From the NCBI GenBank assembly GCA_017525525.1, contig JAFXSQ010000014.1:1-51895 (forward strand): a stretch of 51,895 nt of DNA. Direction: 5' to 3'. A program made the translations under genes and the position numbers. This DNA comes from Lachnospiraceae bacterium. Lineage in GTDB: Bacteria > Bacillota > Clostridia > Lachnospirales > Lachnospiraceae. The notes under the pieces were generated by a model. It made no database searches. It worked only from the letters and a program-made list of their open reading frames with translations, and was not told the origin of the DNA. Below are positions 40,344 through 51,895 of this stretch, one piece after another; within the stretch, counting starts at the first letter, position 1, and the number at the start of each line of letters is the position of its first letter.

Positions 40344-42215
40344 TTAAGTAACACTAAACACAACCTTCTCTGCTAAACCATCCCAGGTTTCCATATTCAG
40401 AGTCGAACCGGAAGATATGTCTGATTCAAGCATGATTCTCGCTATGGCATTTACCACTTCAGTTTCCAGTATATTAACTATTCCTCTTCCTCCATTATCA
40501 AGGTTATCCATTGCCATTGCAACGAGGTGTTCTCGGAAATCTGTTCCGATCTTCAGATTGATACCTTTGCTTTCTTTAAGTCCGTGTATGATTCCGCCAA
40601 GCTTAAGATCCAGTATTTCAGTTGCCACATCAGTTCGAATATAGTCAAACACAACAATGTTTTCACCTATTCTATTCAGAATTTCAGGTCTGTTTATTGT
40701 ATATTTAAAATAGTTTTCTATCTCCGTAAGTACGGATGTCTTAAGCTCATCATAACTCATATCCGGACTTGCAACCGCTTGGATAGTTCCCTCCGCAGTT
40801 ATTCTGTTAATGCCAAGATTACTTGTAAATATGATTAACGCTTCCGAAAAATAAACCGTTTCGCCTGATGAATCAGTAAGCCGTCCATCCTCCAAAATCT
40901 GAAGAAATTTATCCAAGATAGTAGGATGCGCCTTCTCTATCTCATCAAAAAGTAAAATACAAAACGGTTTTTCCTTTATGGCATTAGTAAGCTGGCCTCC
41001 GGCTCCGTAACCTACATATCCCGGAGGAGCTCCAAGTAATTTTTGATCAGAATGAGGCGCTCCGTATTCGCTCATATCAAAGCGAGTCAAAAAGCTTTCA
41101 TCACCAAACACAAATTCAGATATTCTTTTAGCAAGCTCTGTTTTTCCGGTTCCTGTAGGTCCGGCTAAAAACATTACTCCCTTGGGTCTGCTCGTGGATC
41201 CACCCTGCAAGCCTGACAATCCAAGACATGCCCTGCTTAAAATACTGGAAGCAACAGAAATGGCCGCCGACTGGCCTTTTACCTTCGACTCAAGTTCCCT
41301 GCCAACACCTTGAATTTTTTGACGATTTATCTTATCCCAGTGACTTTCAGTCTCCCCATATCTGAATAGCTTAAGCGCGTCTCTGAATTTTGTGATCGGT
41401 ATACCCTGTTGACGCATAATAGTTATAATACCGTCTATATTTGTAAGTGACATACCATCGGTAAACAAAGCAAACTCTTCAACCAGTTTTTTTCTATCTC
41501 CAAGTTCAAGCTCCTTCACACCATTAACCGCATTGATTCTTGAATCTATAACAGACTCCCTGACTTGTTTCGACGGCATACTTATCGTTAATACCTTTAC
41601 CATCGGATTATTGAGATAAAACCATGCAGGAATGTCATTTGCCTTTTCTGCCACAAGAAATAAGAGATTTTTTAAATTTTCCCCTTTCAGATTTTGCGAA
41701 ACAGTCGGTGTAAGCGAAGCAAGCATAAGCTTCGTATAATTAGTCACCTCTGAATCGGTAAGATGATCCGGTTCAAGCGCGATTGCCCTTGCGTATTCAA
41801 TTATAACAGCCTTCGGAGAGTCCGAACGCTGCATTGCCTTCCTGACTATATTAACCGCTTCACATACAGAAAGCTCACTTATACCTCCATTCTTCTCAAG
41901 CTGTGTTTTATTCCTGTCCTTCACAATGCTTCGTACTTCAGACTCCGTCATCCCGGAAGAAAGATAAAAATCCTCAACCATTTTAGGATTAAACTTATTA
42001 TAAAACCCATCAGCTACATTGTAATGAACTATTATCTCATATCCCATCGATACCAGATATCTGTTAAGATATTCAAGAAGCGGAATCGGGATATATCTTT
42101 CCTCAAGCTCTGAGTACCACGGCTGACGGTCATGAACATTGCCTTCGATAATAAATGCCGTATTTATATCCTTATAAACCGCCAGATCTTTTTGCCATTT
42201 TTCGCTCTGTATCAT
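40344..42215 (-). CDS. ClpB-like AAA+ ATPase with degenerate N-terminal module
   Basis: A 623-residue soluble ATPase. Residues about 315-620 form an active AAA_2 module of the Clp/Hsp100 type: Walker A GPTGTGKT (352-359), pore loop GYVGYG (399-404), Walker B ILLFDEIEKAH (420-430), sensor IIFTSN (461-466), then a ClpB D2-small-like tail. Residues 1-300 look like an AAA-related module without a Walker A (FIIEGNVHD near 21; KAVIIEYARAIA near 135). The lack of the usual Clp N-domain and first ATPase site sets it apart from housekeeping ClpB or ClpC. It is the last gene of the nine-gene locus, 13 bases after the FHA gene, with AAGGAG upstream. A remodelling role for the FtsK-like machine is an inference. 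Confidence 0.8.
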   Translation of the reverse strand: MIQSEKWQKDLAVYKDINTAFIIEGNVHDRQPWYSELEERYIPIPLLEYLNRYLVSMGYEIIVHYNVADGFYNKFNPKMVEDFYLSSGMTESEVRSIVKDRNKTQLEKNGGISELSVCEAVNIVRKAMQRSDSPKAVIIEYARAIALEPDHLTDSEVTNYTKLMLASLTPTVSQNLKGENLKNLLFLVAEKANDIPAWFYLNNPMVKVLTISMPSKQVRESVIDSRINAVNGVKELELGDRKKLVEEFALFTDGMSLTNIDGIITIMRQQGIPITKFRDALKLFRYGETESHWDKINRQKIQGVGRELESKVKGQSAAISVASSILSRACLGLSGLQGGSTSRPKGVMFLAGPTGTGKTELAKRISEFVFGDESFLTRFDMSEYGAPHSDQKLLGAPPGYVGYGAGGQLTNAIKEKPFCILLFDEIEKAHPTILDKFLQILEDGRLTDSSGETVYFSEALIIFTSNLGINRITAEGTIQAVASPDMSYDELKTSVLTEIENYFKYTINRPEILNRIGENIVVFDYIRTDVATEILDLKLGGIIHGLKESKGINLKIGTDFREHLVAMAMDNLDNGGRGIVNILETEVVNAIARIMLESDISSGSTLNMETWDGLAEKVVFSVT

Positions 42216-42228
42216 AAACTCTCCTTAT

Positions 42229-43029
42229 CTACTCAGTTATTTCCTTCACCTCGAGTACAAGTTCTTCATTATAAAGCGTTATCCTGCTCCCTGCCATCAC
42301 AAATACCGGGGTACCCTTGATAATCGGATTTCCGTTAACTTTTGTGCCAAATCTGCTTACATCCGTAATATATACACCTCTTTGCCTTTTATTGGGTTTT
42401 ACAATAATGTGTTCTCTGCTTACTGCATTGTTATTGGCAAGCTGTTCCGCTCCGACAGCTGTTCTTCCTACCGAACACTCACTGTCTCCGAGACTTATCT
42501 CATAATTATTCCTTATCGATCTGAGAATGTAAACCAGACGTACTTTCCGCGGAGCCATAATAATATCACTTATCGGCGGTTCCGGCATCCCGCTTATCGG
42601 CGGTTCCGGCATTCCACCCATCGGCGGTTCCGGCATTCCACCCATCGGCGGTTCCGGCATCCCACTTATCGGCGGTTCCGGCATCCCACCCATCGGCGGT
42701 TCCGGCATTCCACCCATCGGCGGTTCCGGCATCCCGCTTGCCGGCGGTTCCGGCATTCCACCCATCGGCGGTTCCGGCATCCCGCTTATCGGCGGTTCCG
42801 GCATCCCGCTTGCCGGCGGTTCCGGCATCTCACTTGCCGGCGGTTCGGTTTCTCTTCGTCCATTCTCCATATACTGCAGTTGCAGGGATCTAACATAAGA
42901 ATCATCTTCACGATACGGAATATAATCCAGAGTCATCCTCCCGCAATTAGGACACGGATCGGGGCATTCTTCAAACGGCGGCTCATACAGCAATATTTTA
43001 CCGCACTCACATACTTTACATATTCGCAT
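42229..43029 (-). CDS. Zinc-ribbon/FHA protein with MPEPP tandem repeats
   Basis: A 266-residue protein in three parts. Residues 1-35 hold a zinc ribbon (CKVCECG and CPNCG). Residues 62-152 are eleven near-identical octads, (I/A/M)(S/G)GMPEPP. Residues about 170-262 are an FHA domain with the expected SVGRT, SREH and FGTKVNGN motifs that bind phosphothreonine. The Pro-rich arm probably keeps the FHA head away from the zinc anchor. The Ser/Thr kinase two genes upstream is the obvious source of phosphothreonine, and its tail has three TxI motifs. No transmembrane segment. AAGGAAG precedes the start. Confidence 0.85.
   Translation of the reverse strand: MRICKVCECGKILLYEPPFEECPDPCPNCGRMTLDYIPYREDDSYVRSLQLQYMENGRRETEPPASEMPEPPASGMPEPPISGMPEPPMGGMPEPPASGMPEPPMGGMPEPPMGGMPEPPISGMPEPPMGGMPEPPMGGMPEPPISGMPEPPISDIIMAPRKVRLVYILRSIRNNYEISLGDSECSVGRTAVGAEQLANNNAVSREHIIVKPNKRQRGVYITDVSRFGTKVNGNPIIKGTPVFVMAGSRITLYNEELVLEVKEITE
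42574..42846. repeat. 24-bp tandem repeat array encoding MPEPP octads
   Basis: About eleven in-frame 24-bp units (core CGGCGGTTCCGGCAT) inside the FHA gene. There are only three main octad versions (ISG, MGG, ASG), arranged in a shuffled order, which points to duplication and recombination. Copy number could vary between strains without breaking the frame. Confidence 0.95.
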
Positions 43030-43073
43030 AATTATCTTCCTTCATCTCTTATCTCTGTATTATATTCATCTTC

Positions 43074-44144
43074 TTAATCAACCGTTCTGGCCTTAAGATT
43101 CTCTCTTCTTGCACGCATTTTTCTTGCTTCAGCCGCACGCTCATCTCCGGTACCACGGCTGCCATAATGTACATATTCCCTTCTTGAAAGATCCGCTGTC
43201 GTCGCAATATCATAGACACTGGGAGCTTCCTCATTCGCAAGCGCCAGCTTCAGCCCTCTGCTCTCCGCTTCCCTTATAATCTGCCGGTGCAGCGAACATG
43301 GTTTTGTAAGCATCTCTTCCGTTATCTCGGCAGGATCAGCATCCAGAACAGGTTCAAACATAAATCCTCCGCTTTGATATGCCATAAATACTTTCACCTC
43401 AGGGGCATCAGGTGAACTGTACACTTCTCCTTCCATTGCATCATCAAGGACAGAAAACTCGACAACCCTGTAGCCCATACTTTCCATAACATCCTGCATT
43501 GTTTCAGCTACATACAGCTTTTCACCCAAAGATTTTGCCTGTGCCCGGAGTTTCGCATTCTCAGCTTCAATCGCCTCTATCGGCAGCTCCATTACATCCT
43601 CTATACTGACCTCCTCTCCTATCATTGTATGCAATGCAAGATTTTCGGCATACAAGTCCTCAAGCGTGTCATCTTGTGATAATCCCTCATCCTCGAGATA
43701 CATCTCAATCCTGCCTTCTATCTGATTTATTACATCCTCTTCGTCCATAGCCGGATCATTTATCAATTCATTTATCGTCTTCACCAGTCTGTTTAATGCC
43801 TGTCTTGCTGAAGCGGTATACACTGCACGTTCGTCTATTCTTCCCAGAAGCTTTTTCAGCTTAATCTGCTGCTCGTCTTCATAATGAACAGCCTGTTCAA
43901 GAATATATGAAAAATCTATAATCTCCGAAGCCTTACCGGTTCCGGTAAATGCCTGTACTTTTGGACCTTCAATCTTTTCCACCCCACTGCTTCCGTAATC
44001 ATTTGTCGCGCTATGTGTTTGATTGTGGCGTACCGTAACGCTTCTTTTAACTGCATTTCTTGCAGCCTCAATTCCCCTTGATATCTGTGCTGCCAGATTT
44101 TTTGAAATATCTCCTACTGTTGCCACATATGTAGAATGACTCAT
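43074..44144 (-). CDS. Unknown helical protein of the FtsK-kinase locus
   Basis: A 356-residue protein of no recognised family. It starts MSHSTYVATVGDISKNLAAQISRGIEAARNAVKRSV and is helical and acidic in the middle (EEDVINQIEGRIEMYLEDEGLSQDDTLEDLYAENLALH; ENAKLRAQAKSLGEKLYVAETMQDVMESMGYRVVEFSVLDD). A compact alpha/beta part near 230-320 (EVYSSPDAPEVKVFMAYQSGGFMFEP) and a basic tail follow. No signal or membrane segment. The chosen ATG has GGAGGATT upstream and comes one base after the kinase stop codon. Tight packing suggests it works with the kinase, as an adaptor or substrate. Confidence 0.7.
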   Translation of the reverse strand: MSHSTYVATVGDISKNLAAQISRGIEAARNAVKRSVTVRHNQTHSATNDYGSSGVEKIEGPKVQAFTGTGKASEIIDFSYILEQAVHYEDEQQIKLKKLLGRIDERAVYTASARQALNRLVKTINELINDPAMDEEDVINQIEGRIEMYLEDEGLSQDDTLEDLYAENLALHTMIGEEVSIEDVMELPIEAIEAENAKLRAQAKSLGEKLYVAETMQDVMESMGYRVVEFSVLDDAMEGEVYSSPDAPEVKVFMAYQSGGFMFEPVLDADPAEITEEMLTKPCSLHRQIIREAESRGLKLALANEEAPSVYDIATTADLSRREYVHYGSRGTGDERAAEARKMRARRENLKARTVD

Positions 44145-44145
44145 T

Positions 44146-45795
44146 TTAATCCTCCATTTTTGACATTGCTGTAATACCTGCACCAAGTCCCATGGTATAA
44201 AGCCATGCCATTACATCACTTCTTGCAATTGTCTGTCTTATTTTCGCTATAGACTGTCTGTGCAGATAATCTATGAACTCCTCTACGGAAGCAACAGAAT
44301 CATTGTCACCGAGCTGCAGAATTTTTTCAGCAACAAATGCATAACAGATGGTTTTCAGCGTAGTAATGTCAAGTTGTTTTCCCGAAGACTGCGCCACAAT
44401 ACGGTTAATCTGCTCCAATACCTTCGCATCCGCTTTTCTTAATCCCAGGTAATATGAAAAAAGCCCCGTCGATACAAAATCCTTTGCATCGTCATCACAT
44501 TCCGAAGAAAGCCGCTGTATAAAATCCTTCAAGCTTCCATAGTTGTGGCCTCGATAATATATATCCGAACTCATTTCAAGCTTATACATAAGCTTAAAAA
44601 CCATTACATCCGGGTCACTGCCCTTTTTTAATTCCTTCAGCAGTTCATATGCTTCCCTGTTATATCCGCGGACAAAATACTCAGTTTCTATACGCAGAAC
44701 ACATACCTTTGCCAGATCCCAGTTTTCCCTCATCAGTTTAACAAGTCTGGTTATACTGGTTGCCTTAACTATCTCTCCTCCCACCGTTCCAAAAATCAAA
44801 GGTTTAATCTCCTCTGTTTCGTTTCTCCTCCTTCTTACTATCTTCTTCTTGGTTACAAACTCGTTTTCGCACCATCTTTTAACTTCTTTATATCCCCACC
44901 TTGTCTCCGGGTTAACATCCAGCAGACCGTTAAGCAATTCTTCCATCTGTGGAGTAATCTGCGAAGGAAGCCTTATCTCCTTTTGCCACATTCTGGCAAT
45001 TTCCTGGGTTGTCATATTCCCAAGCAAAGAATGTCCCGTCAACAGCTTATAGATTACCAGCCCGAACGAACAGTAATCATACGCCGGCGTAACCGTCGCC
45101 TGCCCGTAAAATGCTGTTACAGGAGCCGAGTACTCCGGTGTTCCCTGAAGGACTATTGTTGCTGTACCGTCACTTCCCATAACCCCACAGGAACCGAAAT
45201 CACCGATTATTACACTCTGCTCATCCTCCGCTACGAAAATATTGCTCGGTTTTATATCACAATGAATAATTCCGTTTGAATGTAATTCGTGCAGTCCGTT
45301 GTTTATTGAAGGGATAACGATCTCCTTGATAAAAGAAGCAGAATTAATCTTTCTCTGATCAAGGGTTTCTCCCCTGTAATACTCATAGACCTCATAATAT
45401 GTCCGAAGCATCTTCCCTGCGTCTACAATACGTGTAAGGTTTGGATGGTTACTGTTCAAAAAAAACTCTCTGGCCTTTCTCGAAGGTTGCCACTCCCGCT
45501 TATAAACCTTCGCAACATATACCTTGCCTTCACGCCTTACAACATACACATCTGCCTGCTTTCCCTGATGCTCCATCGCATTGCTGACAATATAATCCGC
45601 ACCGATTACGGCTCCTCGCGAAAGCAAAACCTTGTCTTCATCATTTTGTGCAGACTGAAGAGGCTTTTCAGCCGAATCAGCATATAACGATTCGCTGTCA
45701 ATATATGTTTCTGCAACATTTGGTAAAGCTATTACTGTCTGACTGTCATTAAACCCATCCACTTCAGGTATATATGTTTCACTGCTGTTTATCAT
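44146..45795 (-). CDS. Soluble Ser/Thr protein kinase with TxI-rich N-terminal tail
   Basis: A 549-residue Hanks-type kinase. Residues 60-310 are the kinase domain: ATP-binding Lys96 (VYVAKVY), catalytic loop HCDIKPSN (178-185), IGDFGS (DFG at 199-201) and GTPEYSAPV (218-226) with Val in place of Glu in the usual APE. The glycine loop is poor. Residues 1-40 hold three T-x-I motifs (ETYI, QTVI, ETYI; Thr7, Thr20, Thr30) that suit autophosphorylation and FHA binding. Residues 330-549 are helical and of unknown fold. No transmembrane helix or PASTA domain, so it is not a PknB-type cell-wall sensor. It overlaps the radical SAM gene by 17 bases. Confidence 0.88.
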   Translation of the reverse strand: MINSSETYIPEVDGFNDSQTVIALPNVAETYIDSESLYADSAEKPLQSAQNDEDKVLLSRGAVIGADYIVSNAMEHQGKQADVYVVRREGKVYVAKVYKREWQPSRKAREFFLNSNHPNLTRIVDAGKMLRTYYEVYEYYRGETLDQRKINSASFIKEIVIPSINNGLHELHSNGIIHCDIKPSNIFVAEDEQSVIIGDFGSCGVMGSDGTATIVLQGTPEYSAPVTAFYGQATVTPAYDYCSFGLVIYKLLTGHSLLGNMTTQEIARMWQKEIRLPSQITPQMEELLNGLLDVNPETRWGYKEVKRWCENEFVTKKKIVRRRRNETEEIKPLIFGTVGGEIVKATSITRLVKLMRENWDLAKVCVLRIETEYFVRGYNREAYELLKELKKGSDPDVMVFKLMYKLEMSSDIYYRGHNYGSLKDFIQRLSSECDDDAKDFVSTGLFSYYLGLRKADAKVLEQINRIVAQSSGKQLDITTLKTICYAFVAEKILQLGDNDSVASVEEFIDYLHRQSIAKIRQTIARSDVMAWLYTMGLGAGITAMSKMED

Positions 45796-46396
45796 TTTGT
45801 CCTACTCCCGGAATACCTATACTGTATATTTTACCTTTTCCGACTACAAGCTGCAGTTCTCTTTCCCATGTTTCCGGGTTTTTATACTTTTCCGGATCAC
45901 CAAGAACCACAAACTTCTGATTTGTCGAACCCCTCATACCCTTTCCGTCATTAAGCTCGTCGATATAAGCTCCATCCACAAGAAGTCCCGTATACGACAA
46001 GACTCTTTCAACCTCATGGTCGTTCATCGCCGTCAATTCTTCAATTGTATAGCCTGTAAATACTATGACATCCTTCGTATAACGATTTAGTTCATCCAGA
46101 AGCCTCGCTACACCTGAAGCATACAGAAACGGCTCTCCCCCCGAAAGAGTTATACCGACACCCGGTGACAAATACGGCATTAACACCTTCATTATTGCTT
46201 CGGTACTGAAACACCTTCCATATGCTTTGTTTTGTAATTCAGGACTGATACATCCCGGACAGTTCTTCTGACAGCCCGCAACCCATATACCAATCCTGTC
46301 ACCGGGGCCAAGTGTTTTTACAGGATAATGTATTCTTGCAATATTGATCATATTGCTTTCACCGTCCGAGACAGAAGAATAATCTATAGAACCCAT
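45779..46396 (-). CDS. NrdG-like radical SAM protein
   Basis: A 205-residue radical SAM protein of the NrdG/4Fe-4S single-cluster type. The cluster motif is CQKNCPGC (Cys42, 46, 49; CxxxCxxC), with LSGGEPFL near 84-91 for SAM binding. Family members activate anaerobic ribonucleotide reductase or other glycyl-radical enzymes, but no nrdD or other glycyl-radical gene is in this window. The alternative is a modifying enzyme for a protein of this locus. The ATG overlaps the upstream stop (TAATG), with GGGAGG adjacent and GAGAGG 9 bases away. Confidence 0.8.
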   Translation of the reverse strand: MGSIDYSSVSDGESNMINIARIHYPVKTLGPGDRIGIWVAGCQKNCPGCISPELQNKAYGRCFSTEAIMKVLMPYLSPGVGITLSGGEPFLYASGVARLLDELNRYTKDVIVFTGYTIEELTAMNDHEVERVLSYTGLLVDGAYIDELNDGKGMRGSTNQKFVVLGDPEKYKNPETWERELQLVVGKGKIYSIGIPGVGQNDKQQ

Positions 46397-47448
46397 TACC
46401 TCCCGCCTCTCGTAAATACAAAATGTGACGGACATGCAAGTCCCCTATCCAGATAGTTTCCGCATAACAGGCATCTTCTCTCCGCTCTTCTGCGGTTAAT
46501 ATTATATCCCGACTCCCATTGATTCATCAAATCGACAACTCTCTCAGGTTCTAGAACATACATACTTCCGCCTGTAGCTCTTTTAAGCATCTCATCCATC
46601 ACCGGGATCGGAGACTTATACAGCGACAGCGCGGGATAATCGAAATCCGTCATTACTCCGCCCTTGATCATCGGAAGACACTTTGAGGGTTCCTCTGAAA
46701 TAATTCTCCCTATACCGATATATATAGGGATTTCAAATGCATTTTCACGGAAAGCACTGCCGTTCATATAAACATTTGCATTTATCCTTTTCATCTTCAC
46801 CTGCCGGCGCAAAGAACAAAACTCATCATATCCCATTCCGGTCAGCACATATTCGATATCCGTAAAACTGTACTCCGATTTCAGAAAGCGTCGTTTTATT
46901 GCCCAGACTGACGGCATTCTTTTTGACCGCAAAAGCTTTACAAGAAAATCATTGTTAATGGCATTCAGACGATCCTGCATAGTATAATCATCTGCATAAA
47001 AAAGCGTCTTTATTCCGAGGTATCCTTCCGTCATAAGCAAAATAAACATAATGCTTGATGCTATACCGTCCAAAGCCGAATTGTAGCTTCTTAGCTTTGC
47101 TTTATTCAATACGGATATCTGGTCAAGCGCAGGATTTGGTCTTCTTATTACCGTATCAAAGTAGTTGCTCTCTGCCTCGATTTTCTGGGTAAGCTGTCTC
47201 ATTTTCCTTAAAGTGTCTATTCCCTCATGGGGCTTTTCCATAATCTCTTTGAGCAGTGTATTTCCTTCCTCAAGCAGCAGCTTCCCTTCACCGCGATAAA
47301 ACACATAAGACGAAAGAACATCTATAAGATGAACATAATCTTCATCTGCTTCGACGGCTCTTTTGTATATATCCATAAGCTCATTTTCTTTTCCCTCAAC
47401 CTCATTGGTCAAAAGATTTACAAGATAGACTATTTTTTTATTATTCAT
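46396..47448 (-). CDS. Unknown protein with C-terminal zinc-knuckle-like motif
   Basis: A 350-residue protein of no recognised family. It is mostly helical (KRAVEADEDYVHLIDVLSSYVF; LRKMRQLTQKIEAESNYFDTVI). There is one hydrophobic stretch near 130 (GIASSIMFILLMTEGYLGIKTLF) that may be buried or a single membrane helix. The end, CLLCGNYLDRGLACPSHF, has CxxC plus CxxH spacing for zinc. The start overlaps the previous gene by 8 bases and its stop overlaps the radical SAM start, so translation of the three is probably coupled. Confidence 0.7.
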   Translation of the reverse strand: MNNKKIVYLVNLLTNEVEGKENELMDIYKRAVEADEDYVHLIDVLSSYVFYRGEGKLLLEEGNTLLKEIMEKPHEGIDTLRKMRQLTQKIEAESNYFDTVIRRPNPALDQISVLNKAKLRSYNSALDGIASSIMFILLMTEGYLGIKTLFYADDYTMQDRLNAINNDFLVKLLRSKRMPSVWAIKRRFLKSEYSFTDIEYVLTGMGYDEFCSLRRQVKMKRINANVYMNGSAFRENAFEIPIYIGIGRIISEEPSKCLPMIKGGVMTDFDYPALSLYKSPIPVMDEMLKRATGGSMYVLEPERVVDLMNQWESGYNINRRRAERRCLLCGNYLDRGLACPSHFVFTRGGR

Positions 47449-47848
47449 CGCCTTGTTCTCTTTTCGCGTACTCCAAACTATCTTTTACTACACTTGCCAG
47501 TACCGAAGCCAGAACGGAACCCGGATCTTCGGCCACGGCATCGCCGATCGAACTCATCGCCGCAGACATCTGGTTATTATTTCCTTTTGCCGAAGCAAGC
47601 CTCTCAAGCGCAGTTTTATAACTATCATACATACCGTGTTCATAGTTAATTCCGTAGATGCCGACCGGATACGACTCTGTTACTATCTCCCTTACCTGAT
47701 CAAGCTTACTTCGCAGTAATTCCTCTTCGTACGGATCGGTTGCGCCAAGCATAGCGTACTCGTAGCATTTATACAGCTTTAGAAATGCATTTCCAAGCAT
47801 ATCAGGAGTGGCTGATACAGGCTGGTTCAGTAATTCATAAACATCCAT
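47441..47848 (-). CDS. Small unknown helical protein of the FtsK-kinase locus
   Basis: A 135-residue protein starting MDVYELLNQPVSATPDMLGNAFLKLYKCYEYAMLG. The second half is Ala/Ser-rich and helical (QMSAAMSSIGDAVAEDPGSVLASVLASVVKDSLEYAKREQG). No signal peptide, membrane helix or known motif. The size and helical content might suit a secreted or assembled small subunit, but there is no WXG motif. An ATG 11 codons upstream is possible; the chosen one begins the part that looks folded. A 180-base spacer with a CACC..CGGTT/AACCG..GGTG hairpin separates it from the small membrane protein. Confidence 0.6.
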   Translation of the reverse strand: MDVYELLNQPVSATPDMLGNAFLKLYKCYEYAMLGATDPYEEELLRSKLDQVREIVTESYPVGIYGINYEHGMYDSYKTALERLASAKGNNNQMSAAMSSIGDAVAEDPGSVLASVLASVVKDSLEYAKREQGDE

Positions 47849-48030
47849 TTTTATAACCTGTCTTTCCGCGAAAGACACCAATGCGGTTATGAAACCGAGG
47901 TGCTTCCGCCATCTATTGTTTTAAAGCTTCCTTCCTTCTGTTATTATCTTTAGTATAAGACTGACATACTGCTGAGCACATGGATGTGACCGGCTTGCAT
48001 GATAAAAAGGTAACAAGAGTTTCAAACCAA

Positions 48031-48369
48031 TCACCTGTAATTATCCAAATAATTATTCAATCCGCTGTTAGCCCTTTCAATTTCATTTCTTTCCATCCCC
48101 TGTTTTTCTGTCAGCTTATAAATCAAGCCAATAGTTCCGGCGCCTACAAGAATCGCCAGAAACCAATGTCCCGTAGAAAACAGTCCGATTGTTATCACAA
48201 GACCGATCAGGAACAAAATCGCATTCGTTTTGAGGCAATGGCTATCAAATGCCTGAAACGCCTGGGCCGCTCCGCTTCTCGCCGACTGCATTGCTTCCTT
48301 TCTGTAATCCTCCGCCTCCTTGCTCATCCTATCATACGGCTCTGTTGCGCTGTTTCGTATAATTCCCAT
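48031..48369 (-). CDS. Small two-helix membrane protein
   Basis: A 112-residue protein with about 45 charged, Ala-rich helical residues, then two transmembrane helices (AILFLIGLVITIGLFS and WFLAILVGAGTIGLIY) separated by a short turn, and a charged tail. Both ends should be cytoplasmic. It starts one base after the FtsK-like gene, and its Shine-Dalgarno sequence (GAGGAGG) is inside that gene's last codons. Since the visible FtsK-like protein has no membrane helix, this partner could be its membrane anchor (inference). Confidence 0.7.
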   Translation of the reverse strand: MGIIRNSATEPYDRMSKEAEDYRKEAMQSARSGAAQAFQAFDSHCLKTNAILFLIGLVITIGLFSTGHWFLAILVGAGTIGLIYKLTEKQGMERNEIERANSGLNNYLDNYR

Positions 48370-48370
48370 T

Positions 48371-51300
48371 TTACTCCTCCTCAGTTATCTCTGCATACGC
48401 ATCTGCAATATCCAAAACCCATGTCTTTGCCGGAAGATTATATGGCCTGAAATGCACATTGCGTCGTTCATTAATATCAAAGTACACAGCCGAGCTGTCC
48501 TGAAGCAGACCGGCTTCACTTTCTTCCACAAGCATTTCCATCTCATTGTCAGACAGTCCATACGCTATTCTTTGCTCGAATATGCGCTCAATAATGTTTC
48601 CTACAAAAAGATCATTCAGATTATTCTTCTCTGACCATATTATGCTATTAACACCAACCGTAGGACCATAAAGAAGCACGTTTTCAAGCTTGTTGATCAA
48701 ACTCAGCTCGCCATTTTGAACATTGGATGCATAGTCACGCAATGCTCTTACACGATTGATTCCGAAGAGAATAAAGAATATCTGCTCAAACCCCGAAGCT
48801 CCCGCATTCTTTTCCTGAATACGCTCGGATGTAAGCTTATAGAGATACCCTATCAATTCTCCTATGCCTCTGGCATCGACAGTTTCGACCTGTTCAAACG
48901 CCTCTGCCAGATCATTTAAGCCGGCGGTATCATCCCTTAATTCAAGATCTGAATAATCAGCCACATAACACAGCGTGTTTGTTGCGTCATGTGACGAATT
49001 CAACTCATCATATAACACGCTGAGAATAGCATATTCGCATATAGCCATGGCTTTCTTTTCGTCCCTGCCTACAATAAGCAGATTATCGCCTTCATATTCA
49101 CTGAATTCTTTTATCAGTACGCTCTTCTTTCCAAAGCCCTGTCCAAGAATAAGGCCATATCTGTTTTTCTTGGTGGCAAGCAGCTTCAATGATTCTTTTC
49201 CATCTTCTATAAGCCTGTTGAAACAGCTGTGGATATCATCTTCGGCATTAGTAAGCAGAACTCTCTGTTCAAAATCCTTATAGTATTCGACCATTGCAGG
49301 TTGTCTGTAATAAGCATCCAGAAGCTCAATATACTTTTGTCTCTCCTCAGAAGTCAGATAGCTTACCTGAAAAAATATATTCCACTTCGGATCACCGCAC
49401 ATACGGTTGTAAATAGCGGATCCTGCCGGACGGTTCTGCAGTGTCTGGATACCCTGATTGTTCGGATCAAGTATGGAAGCGGCACCCGCGCTGTCTCCTC
49501 TGATAACCATGCGTACAACAAAATGTGAAAACCAGTTTTGCAAACCGCTGCAATTTGAGAAATCCTGGCACGAAAGCACCAAATGAATTCCCAATGCACG
49601 TCCCTGAGTAACCAGCTTTCCAATACAGGATAAGCTTTCGGATGTAATATAGTCATTTGACCCGCTTCTGAACAGCTCCTGAACCTCATCAAATATCAGC
49701 AGGATTCTCGGCATCCTTCGATTTGAAATCTGGTTATAAGATATAATATCTGCCACATTATTCCTTGAAAAAATATCAGCTCTGTTCTCAAGTTCTTCAC
49801 AAAGCTCTTTAAGTATATTAAGTCCGAATTCCCTCTCGCTGTCTACTGCAATTACTTTAAGATTCGGAAGTCTGTAGCGTGTATACTGCTTAAATTCTAT
49901 ACCCTCCTTAAAATCAACCAGATAAAGCTGAAGGTCATACGGTGAATATGTAATCATTGCACTCGTGATCAACGTGTGCATAAGCGAAGTTTTTCCTGCA
50001 CCCGTAGGGCCTGCTAAAAGCATATGATGCTCTGTCGTTCCGTCAGACTTTCCGAGAATCATATTTACAACCGTATCGGCGCCCTTGATTCCAATAGGAA
50101 TCGATATCTTGTCATTCTCTCCCCTGAACCAATTGTTACTATCTTCAATATCGAATTTGAACAGATCGGCAAACTTCTCTATCTTTTGACGATAGTTTGA
50201 TATATCATTTGCAAGTGTTGCAATTATCTCATCCTTATTCTCAAGAATATCTGTCATAGGATCAAGCTCAAGGAATACATCTCCGTAAAGATTTGAATCT
50301 AAATAATACCTCTGATCCTGTTCCCTGCACACAATAACCCTTTGCTCTATCTCCTTTACAATGGACTCATTCCTTTGTCTAAGATTCTCAAGTTCTCTCT
50401 CATCGGTCCAGATTAAAATAATCACACCGTTTTTCGCACTGTTTCTGACTATCGACTGAAGATTTGCAAGTGCATTCTGACCGAACCCGTGCGGGAAATC
50501 GGTAATTGCAAGAACTTTTATTTCTTCTCGATTAAGTCTGCTGGTTATATCCTCTCCATAAGCCTGTGTCTGAGTATCTATCTTTCTTCTGAATGCCGAG
50601 ATTGCGTTGTCAATCTCCGCTGCCTCACACCATATTTTAGAGTCTATAACTCTCTCTGCTGTTGCACCGGCAAGCTTAACAATATCAGGAAAACTGCTTC
50701 CCGAGCCAAGCGGATCAATCATAGTAGCTTCAAGCTTTCCTGCGGGGAAAGCCATAAACATCTTGAGAAGCATCGGAAGAATCATCTTCTTGATTTTATC
50801 ATTTTCAGAAGAAGCATACTTTACCATCAGCGAAAGTCCGTCTTCCCTGTATCTCTGAACATACGGCATTGAAAGCTTAATGCTCTTTTCCTGACGGGTT
50901 GTAATCTCATGAGCTTCCTTTGATATAATATGTGCTATATCGGCTCTGTCTGCATCCGAAGCACTGTCAAATTCAGTACAAAGCTTTCCGAAATATACCA
51001 CATCAGGAAGTGCTTTCGAGGAGACATAGTGATTGCCGTTAATCCTTACCGATGTAGCTTCCATATTGTAGGCATGTATATCCGCTTCATTCATGCCCAT
51101 TTTAATCCGTCCGGCATACTCTGTCTCTAATGCCTTAACCGCCTCCTGAAACTCGCGTCTGTACTTTGCATTGGTTTCTTCATATTCCCTTGCTGCCTTT
51201 GCTTTTCTTTCTTCAGCATTTTGGGATTCAGCAAGAAAATCAGCCGTTAAATCCTGTGTCGCCTTCCTCTCCCTGTCTCTCTGGAGTTCAAGGGCTTTAT

Positions 51301-51895
51301 CAATGTTTGTTATAGCATGCTCCAACATCATACTGCCGCCTGCGGAAGCATACGCTGACACATTTCCGATATCGGTTCTGTATTGCAATATCCGCTGCTT
51401 GAGATTCTTATACTTTTCTGTCATCGATTTGACGCTTTCCCGTATGGCAGAAAGCAATTGATCTTTTCGCGTCTCTACAGCCTTTAAATCTTCTTCTATT
51501 TCTCTGATACGCCCGTCCCTCATATCTGTATTGCGGCTAATCTTATCATTCATCTCTCGACGCTTTACTTCAACAGCATCAAGAAACTCATTATAAAATC
51601 TCCGGACACTTTTTAGTGCCGTAGTAGAAGAATAATGTCCTATAGGGCAGTCGTACCATCCATCCCAGCTTTTCGAACTGACGGATCGTGGTTGCGGTTC
51701 CGGCTGCGGTTCCGGCTGCGGTTCCGGCTGCGGTTCCGGTTGCGGTTCCGGTTGCGGTTCCGGCTGCGGTTCCGGCTGCGGTTCCGGCTGCGGTTCCGGC
51801 TGCGGCTGCGGTTGCGGCTGAGGTTCCGGCTGTGGTTCCGGCTGCGGTTCCGGCTGCGGTTCCGGCTGCGGTTCCGGCTGCGGGTCCGGCTGCGG
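48371..51895 (-). CDS. FtsK/EssC-like multi-domain ATPase, 5' end beyond the window
   Basis: At least 1174 residues, open to the window edge. The visible N-terminus is a Pro-Gln-Pro-Glu repeat of about 68 residues, then [12 protein letters not shown] and a long coiled coil. Counted from the internal Met at 51553, a degenerate FtsK-like module without Walker A lies at 255-400 ([25 protein letters not shown]). An active module has Walker [10 protein letters not shown] (515-523), [12 protein letters not shown] and Walker [13 protein letters not shown] (616-627). A third, degenerate module follows ([13 protein letters not shown] near 824; [11 protein letters not shown]). Three tandem FtsK modules are the layout of EssC/EccC in type VII secretion, but here there is no membrane helix or N-terminal FHA in the visible part. 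The substrate is unknown. Confidence 0.88.
51689..51895. repeat. 12-bp tandem repeat encoding Pro-Gln-Pro-Glu
   Basis: Repeats of TGCGGTTCCGGC (plus strand) encode PQPE units on the minus strand, with occasional PQPQ and one PQPD. The array continues to the window edge without a stop and stays in frame with the FtsK-like ATPase. Confidence 0.95.

Follow-up and report, generated by a model that had tools for sequence, protein, structure and literature searches.

Type VI secretion systems (T6SS) have a PpkA/PppA/Fha control set, with ClpV. Type VII secretion systems (T7SS), the described machines closest to the locus that we analyze here, fall into subtypes T7SSa to T7SSj and, in the parts of the recent comparison drawn on here (Garrett, Higginson and Palmer 2024, PMC11217815), all of subtypes T7SSc to T7SSj have a canonical ATPase and a WXG100 protein, often together with kinase, phosphatase and FHA genes; phosphorylation in T6SS is taken up in the discussion of the same paper. 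The present locus consists of nine genes on the minus strand at positions 40344-51895 of a 51,895-nt stretch of DNA from a Lachnospiraceae bacterium (contig JAFXSQ010000014.1, in what follows the window), which is an entire contig (C19) of a genome of 3.19 Mb in 75 contigs (G000). By a modest degree we favor the view that these genes make up the larger share of a machinery by which polymorphic toxins would be exported under kinase/FHA gating, in a system akin to T7SS and distinct from it. They probably form an undescribed relative of T7SS machines, joined to an unusual pair of an unfolding motor and a radical enzyme, and no description of the nine-gene set was found in the open-licence PMC literature. 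If this is correct, the locus represents a further toxin-export branch among gut anaerobes, without the parts by which T7SS are recognized, so that surveys keyed on WXG100 or on a membrane-bound EssC would miss it.

The nine genes and what lies upstream of them

An open reading frame (ORF) check confirmed the nine-gene minus-strand set proposed by the first-pass annotation. The features are listed here with the evidence for each (E-values are from Pfam; L004 and G1138 are two related loci described below).

40344..42215, minus strand: ClpB-like AAA+ protein, 623 aa (AAA_2 2e-46, ClpB_D2-small; alignment A4)
42229..43029, minus strand: zinc-ribbon and FHA protein, 266 aa (FHA 2.9e-7; zinc ribbon by eye)
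43074..44186, minus strand: coiled-coil protein, family not recognized, 370 aa (TTG start)
44146..45795, minus strand: Hanks-type Ser/Thr kinase, 549 aa (Pkinase 7.3e-32)
45779..46435, minus strand: NrdG/PFL-activase-like radical SAM protein (Fer4_12 5.4e-27; alignment A5)
46396..47448, minus strand: protein without recognized family, 350 aa (homologues in L004 and G1138)
47441..47881, minus strand: small protein without recognized family, 146 aa (positional counterparts in L004 and G1138)
48031..48369, minus strand: small membrane protein, 112 aa (hydropathy scan; positional counterparts)
48371..51895, minus strand: FtsK/EssC-like ATPase, 5' end missing, 1174 codons (FtsK_SpoIIIE 1.5e-24)
51693..51895, minus strand: 12-bp repeat coding (PQPE)n, at the contig end (not found elsewhere in G000)

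Pfam bears out the family assignments made earlier (ClpB-type D2, FHA, kinase, NrdG-like radical SAM and FtsK), while the products of the genes at 43074, 46396, 47441 and 48031 give no match reaching a curated cut-off in Pfam or NCBIfam. Against PADLOC-DB the nine proteins give partial domain matches only, with no full-length match to the set of a known anti-phage system. The gaps between neighboring genes are 13, 44, -41, -17, -40, -8, 149 and 1 nt; the tight spacing noted at first for most of the genes is seen in seven of the eight pairs, which overlap or lie at most 44 nt apart, the exception being the single gap of 149 nt.

On sequence comparison the locus is a real unit, beyond what chance would assemble, because the same nine genes occur in the same order, nine of nine in each case, in L004 and G1138 at identities of 21-57%. 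L004 belongs to a Clostridiales metagenome-assembled genome, presumably from termite gut to judge by the isolate name, and was the sole relative returned when the FtsK protein was used in a pattern-based scan across 84,980 species genomes; G1138 is a one-contig genome of the window's own family. Identity to the window is highest for the ClpB-like protein (55-57%), followed by FtsK (44%), radical SAM (43-46%), FHA (38%), kinase (35-38%) and the 43074 and 46396 products (23-31%), and the two small proteins (21-25%) are paired by place more than by score. The concern that the genes might separate in other genomes is therefore not borne out, and the proposal of one system, retained together and in order, holds up.

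The genes upstream of FtsK in these two loci give an indication of what the machine might move. L004 has four ORFs there, of 143, 163, 479 and 140 aa, and the corresponding stretch of G1138 contains an ORF of 69 aa, proteins of 647 and 163 aa and a HerA-like protein of 978 aa (DUF87 2.2e-7). The L004 143-aa ORF, which is a partial match (to residues 824-934 of the HerA-like protein) located at the contig edge, shows only a piece of the HerA-like gene. The 163-aa helical partners of the two loci are 63% identical. Their neighbors of 479 and 647 aa are 48% identical over the N-terminal ∼202 residues (E 3e-52) and unrelated over the remainders (the best match, 0.012, spans 25 aa bordering on the shared part), so that these proteins, two in number, have the layout of polymorphic toxins with a constant N-terminus and exchanged C-termini. 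The C-terminus of the L004 protein matches Endonuclea_NS_2 (PF13930, DNA/RNA non-specific endonuclease) at 8.9e-33; that of the G1138 protein has no match in Pfam, NCBIfam or the PDB, the protein showing a single weak match to PHROG, within the N-terminal part, and a HExxH string seen by eye only. The 140-aa gene that follows the L004 effector was looked at as an immunity-gene candidate and has no Pfam match. Among five genomes of the genus of G1138 the effector occurs in G1138 itself alone; FtsK and effector queries found no relative among viral contigs, and the effector N-terminus none among plasmids. Given toxin-layout genes and a helical partner upstream of FtsK in both L004 and G1138, the polymer moved is, in these relatives, most likely a toxin protein, which narrows the polymer-moving machine (protein or DNA) first suggested; transport as such we infer.

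Two further core loci extend this comparison. In G1071, of a sister type, the same core is accompanied by a HerA-like protein and by a protein of 179 aa related to the 163-aa partner; a further protein, of 466 aa, shows a HExxH string by eye, and the FtsK, 1207 aa long, contains a single Walker A motif. The EssC-like ATPase of G554, a locus from the window's genus, is 1592 aa long, contains two Walker A motifs and is followed by three short proteins. A toxin-like gene with a helical partner is thus present in three of the four core loci in which the surroundings of FtsK can be read (L004, G1138 and G1071; not G554). With a profile of the FtsK N-terminus, 3 of 391 genomes of the class were matched, the window's own among them. 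Tyrosine-recombinase-like genes are seen by eye near the locus edges in G1138 (L174 6921-7463) and G1071 (L179 13673-14659), which suggests that these two loci are mobile islands.

In the window the FtsK reading frame continues through the (PQPE)n repeat as far as the contig extends, and its true start therefore lies outside the contig; the repeat has no second occurrence in G000, so that no joining contig could be found by it. The L004 FtsK begins with an S1 domain (Pfam), and an S1-domain query finds six places in G000, the one that was read being a complete two-S1 protein on contig C28. At the other places, considered as the missing FtsK start, the lengths of the open frames suggest ordinary S1 proteins.

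The ATPase and its control compared with type VII secretion

The window ATPase contains a single Walker A motif, GPTGAGKT, at residue 515 of the 1060-aa form that starts at ATG, and its layout is a coiled coil followed by a P-loop module between two parts that resemble degenerate modules; a Walker scan gives one motif each, centrally placed, for the window, L004 and G1138 proteins. From their similarity to EssC the flanking parts would be degenerate FtsK modules. The EssC-like character of the three-module ATPase described at first is thus retained, with one Walker A motif only and with flanking modules that follow from resemblance to EssC. The nearest PDB entries are 4nh0 (2.1e-21; deposited as FtsK/SpoIIIE, and which we take to be an EccC), YukB (1.9e-18) and EccC5 (5e-17), as against 5.8e-4 for the DNA translocase FtsK (2ius). 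The best NCBIfam models are likewise EssC/EccC, at 93.3 bits versus an equivalog cut-off of 778.4, so that by these scores T7SS ATPases are the closest kin and the protein is a relative, not an equivalog, of the EccC/EssC family.

These scores bear on a different explanation, namely that FtsK and HerA form a DNA pump or a conjugation-type pump of which the toxin-like genes are mere passengers. FtsK and HerA are indeed DNA-motor superfamilies, the FtsK protein of L004 carries a nucleic-acid-binding S1 domain, and the core of locus L033 adjoins a VirD4/TraG-like coupling protein. However, the ATPase scores higher with T7SS ATPases than with FtsK and neither relaxase nor mating-pair genes were found in the nine-gene set or in the scanned upstream genes of L004 and G1138, and we regard a DNA pump as quite improbable.

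Hydropathy was evaluated by a simple scan over 19 residues with a threshold of 1.6, without a dedicated predictor. By this measure no membrane helix is predicted for the FtsK of L004 or of G1138, both complete, the maxima being 1.40 and 1.59, and neither has the N-terminal helix pair; the G1071 protein has one peak (2.08 at residues 425-443) which lies inside the apparent first module and is not an N-terminal pair. Among the nine window proteins, the FtsK copy being without its N-terminus, only the 48031 product has predicted helices, at 46-64 and 69-87, and its counterparts by position have 114 and 128 aa with identities of 21-26%.

The likeness to T7SS, as set out in the parts of PMC11217815 used here, therefore consists of an ATPase of the FtsK/EssC family, a helical partner beside toxin genes, and the kinase and FHA proteins that several T7SS subtypes have along with a PPM phosphatase. 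The differences are an ATPase that has one P-loop and no predicted membrane helix (L004 and G1138), the lack of a WXG100 match among the upstream genes of L004 and in the 163-aa protein of G1138, a separate two-helix membrane protein, a second, HerA-like ATPase in G1138 and G1071, and the presence of a ClpB-like and a radical SAM protein, neither 'radical' nor 'ClpB' appearing in the main text of that paper. For the ubiquitin-like EsaB/TsxB of most T7SS subtypes there is no Pfam match in the nine proteins, among which small divergent copies could be missed. Since a membrane-bound ATPase and a WXG100 protein were both looked for in L004 and G1138 and neither was found, we do not class the locus as a T7SS, in agreement with the first-pass annotation, although by analogy it probably works like one. 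The central single-P-loop ATPase of the window, L004 and G1138 is as in a type noted in a footnote of Zhang et al. 2012 (PMC3482391), but the type in that footnote comes from proteobacteria, planctomycetes and others and occurs with WXG genes, and the kinase, ClpB-like and radical SAM set does not figure in the parts of that paper drawn on here.

The kinase keeps its VAK, HCD and DFG motifs, has an additional C-terminal region and shows no membrane helix in the hydropathy scan, and the FHA domain keeps its GR, SREH and NG signatures. Because these residues are kept both are probably active. The earlier description of an EssC-like ATPase and of kinase/FHA control is supported. The occurrence of a kinase, an FHA protein and a ClpB-type unfoldase in one putative export locus also recalls T6SS by analogy, although no contractile-tail gene is found among the nine and the ClpV equivalog score of the unfoldase, 212.7, lies far below the cut-off of 884.95, so that the locus does not qualify as a T6SS. 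NTP-dependent conflict systems (Kaur et al. 2020, PMC7159879) are similar in their modular use of kinase, phosphatase and AAA+ components, in one case with a radical SAM protein; they differ in having vWA-MoxR and GAP1-type components, and the parts of that survey drawn on here describe no ClpB-like/NrdG-like pair and no EssC-like pump.

The ClpB-like/radical SAM pair in the wider group

The D2 module of the ClpB-like protein is intact (GPTGTGKTE, LLFDE and the pore loop GYVGYGAGGQLT). The first 295 residues have no Walker A motif in alignment A4, and a profile of them matched nothing in the PDB by sequence, but a low-confidence structural model (pLDDT 53) matches AAA+ proteins, best over residues 213-294. 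The N-terminal part is thus probably a degenerate AAA+ module, as had been proposed, a case that falls short of proof. With a score of 244.1 versus 1232.1 bits for the ClpB chaperone equivalog, the protein is not a ClpB with two active AAA+ modules. In the radical SAM protein the CX3CX2C cluster motif is invariant in all eight aligned homologues (A5), which places it in the radical SAM superfamily; the nearest solved structure is a PFL-activating enzyme (4e-11), the NrdG equivalog score is 80.8 bits versus a cut-off of 126.1, so that it is not NrdG proper, and alignment with homologues puts the gene start probably near 46351, not 46435. In a scan for glycyl-radical patterns the ClpB-like N-termini of L004 and G1138 gave R[VI]DGF and the FHA protein of L004 gave RIRGF; the nine proteins of the window gave nothing, and for this reason no candidate radical site is claimed.

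In order to place this pair we have searched overlapping sets of genomes with the ClpB-like N-terminus. A two-row profile matched 6 of 391 genomes of the class and 4 of 37 of the genus, and a nine-row profile 14 of 398 of the phylum (one weakly) and 8 of 397 of the family (the window's own included), in addition to 19 plasmid records. Loci were fetched for 6 of these 19 records, the other 13 and the phylum match G862 lying outside the sample. The 33 loci counted below are those with a substantial ClpB-like gene; L035 and L036 (fragments) and L152 (weak, 2e-6) were left out, L149-L151 come from one genus, and the ClpB-like gene of L147 is cut by a contig end. A radical SAM match is present in 32 of the 33, always on the same strand (L037 has none), within 154 nt in 24 loci, at 1.3-4.1 kb in seven and at 9.3 kb in L140. 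Other partners vary, with kinase and FHA matches in 22 loci each, PP2C in 15, an SF1/DUF4011-type helicase in 10, FtsK in 5 (three inside the fetched stretches and two, L039 and L190, in neighboring ones) and a VirD4-like gene in one, L033. The radical SAM and Clp-like proteins, first regarded as parts that do not fit, are accordingly the most constant pair of the wider group. The PP2C that the first-pass annotation expected is not matched by PP2C queries in any of the three loci of the window's type, and the expected vWA and TerD proteins do not appear in Pfam scans of the nine genes and of the scanned upstream genes of L004 and G1138. Among the at least 80 viral matches listed for profile A4, which were found through D2 motifs, the ClpB-like N-terminus occurs in 0 of 80 and a radical SAM match in 0 of 80; the viral loci serve as an imperfect control.

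In a tree of 29 ClpB-like proteins the window, L004 and G1138 form one clade (100/100), G554 and G1071 group together (100/99), and so do five loci of SF1/PIN type (100/100). FtsK-type pumps therefore, as the tree resolves it, accompany two separate core lineages, with the pair as the constant part. These clades also count against a stress or metabolic regulatory complex similar to Ter, in which there would be no secretion and the toxin genes would be coincidental, as does the finding of a toxin-like gene and helical partner in three of four readable core loci (L004, G1138 and G1071; not G554). Such a complex would fit with the 17 of 33 fetched stretches, some on short contigs, that contain none of the motors sought (FtsK, SF1/DUF4011 helicase or VirD4), a count in which motors may be missed because not every locus was extended, and with a distant FtsK relative near TerD genes in Rhodococcus. 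We give it little credence.

A five-gene set of SF1 helicase, a PIN or a 470-aa type protein, a protein of ∼380 aa, ClpB-like protein and radical SAM protein occurs in Proteobacteria and Clostridia and is a candidate defense system.

Loci of this SF1 type: L137 6478-16431; L139 6620-16339; L146; L181; L034

L137 lies near ArdA, integrase and restriction genes, and L139 near DarT. From such neighbors one might argue that the window locus, too, is a defense system of abortive-infection type acting inside the cell, in which kinase and FHA protein would sense phage or plasmid, FtsK and HerA would act on the invading DNA, and the ClpB-like/radical SAM pair would release the toxin-like protein within the cell. 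Plasmids do carry the ClpB-like/radical SAM pair next to genes for SF1 helicases and PIN proteins; PADLOC gives matches to MkoA (7e-102) for the L137 SF1 helicase and to PDC-S37 (1308 bits) for the L136 DUF4011 helicase; and the recombinase-like genes beside G1138 and G1071, together with FtsK-like ATPases without a predicted membrane helix in L004 and G1138, would agree with it. Opposed to it are the solved relatives nearest to FtsK, which are protein-export ATPases, the polymorphic-toxin layout with a partner gene upstream, and the small membrane protein at the same place in all three loci. On these grounds intracellular defense seems rather unlikely to us, though it is the most serious of the competing explanations.

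As a tentative proposal, which we think more likely wrong than right, the ClpB-like AAA+ unfoldase with its dead first module and the single-domain PFL-AE/NrdG-like radical SAM protein might be an undescribed two-protein engine plugged into different machines (EssC-like toxin pumps, a VirD4-like pump and SF1/DUF4011 helicases), the radical enzyme modifying its AAA+ partner or the substrate threaded through it. We know of no precedent for post-translational switching of an AAA+ motor by radical chemistry. A near-constant pair with varying motors poses a testable question, that of the effect of an enzyme resembling glycyl-radical activases on an AAA+ machine.

Several loci have further genes beside the pair. 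In L033 (9080-19593) the core lies beside a ClpP-like protease and the VirD4/TraG-like coupling protein. Upstream of the core in L030 (3296-10298) there are MORN and DUF4236 genes, a gene resembling those of A24 prepilin peptidases and two radical SAM genes, of which one matches SPASM weakly. A 2101-aa ORF in L189 (14469-20774) matches both DUF4011 helicase and kinase queries and adjoins ClpB-like and radical SAM genes. L035 (139-889) and L036 (10535-10798), in G545 from the window's genus, are parts of a ClpB-like gene that lie on separate contigs, one part being interrupted by an in-frame stop, and are possibly a decayed copy of the locus.

A proposed path of export, and further observations

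If the favored view of the locus as part of a toxin exporter is correct, its parts could work together as follows. The effector, through its coiled-coil N-terminus, would join the 163-aa protein in a targeting unit for the EssC-like ATPase which, docked to the membrane by the two-helix protein and assisted, where present, by the HerA-like ATPase, would drive the effector across the membrane. Assembly would be gated by the Hanks kinase, which would phosphorylate a partner that the FHA protein then binds. The ClpB-like unfoldase may strip, unfold or recycle a component or the substrate, by analogy with ClpV in type VI secretion, and the radical SAM protein may modify one of the system's own proteins, its near-constant ClpB-like companion being a candidate; such a modification could couple activity to anaerobic, SAM-rich conditions.

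A number of observations weigh against this proposal. Contig C19 stops inside the FtsK gene, no effector is recognized in the window's own genome, and queries with the HerA-like protein and the 163-aa partner have no match in the 75 contigs of G000, where absence is not proof of loss. To the missing membrane helix of the L004 and G1138 FtsK proteins and the missing WXG100 match discussed above must be added the G1138 locus, where the stretch from effector to FtsK offers just the 69-aa ORF and no convincing candidate for an immunity gene, and G554, a core locus with no recognized effector, in which an 88-aa protein matches WXG100_ESAT6 only at 0.024. Related ClpB-like cores sit with SF1 helicases in apparent defense islands, and a distant FtsK relative in Rhodococcus (L187) lies near TerD genes with no toxin in its annotation table, so that a core and an ATPase need not mean toxin export.

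Three other distant FtsK relatives have neighbors that count in favor of export. L171 adjoins WXG100-like genes (0.005 and 2.8e-4, both below the Pfam cut-off) and a papain-fold toxin gene (Gln_amidase 3e-8), and L185, on a Helicobacter plasmid, lies beside an HNH endonuclease and an SMI1/KNR4 gene. In L186 (6294-19729; plasmid pSBC2-5 of Caballeronia sp. SBC2) FtsK, WXG100, two vWA, DUF1887 CARF, PP2C, kinase and SF1-type genes form one run, which puts a CARF protein within a T7SS-like set of a Gram-negative. Apart from these, L172 (6799-15073, in G487) has an EssC-like ATPase beside genes that by eye are E1/ThiF-like and JAB-like and beside an effector-like gene, with no ClpB-like core gene seen in the stretch.

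The proteins without recognized family differ in how widely they occur. The 43074 product, of which the real start may be an internal ATG, has homologues in many ClpB-like loci; an identity with the ∼380-aa protein of the SF1-type loci was considered and not established (hhalign probability 2%). The 46396 product has a C-terminal CX2C...C segment, zinc-ribbon-like by eye, was found in 1 of 150 genomes of the family, namely its own, and has no homologue beyond L004 and G1138 in 42 loci (phmmer, 1e-3). Counterparts of the 47441 product by position have 173 aa (L004) and 153 aa (G1138), with 24-30% identity among the three, similarity to the window copy alone not being significant (blastp 0.13). 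Finally, the FHA gene contains at 42567-42846 a 24-bp tandem repeat of 11.7 copies that codes for a PEPPMGGM-type linker; this repeat is missing from the FHA protein of L004, and that of G1138 is equally short.

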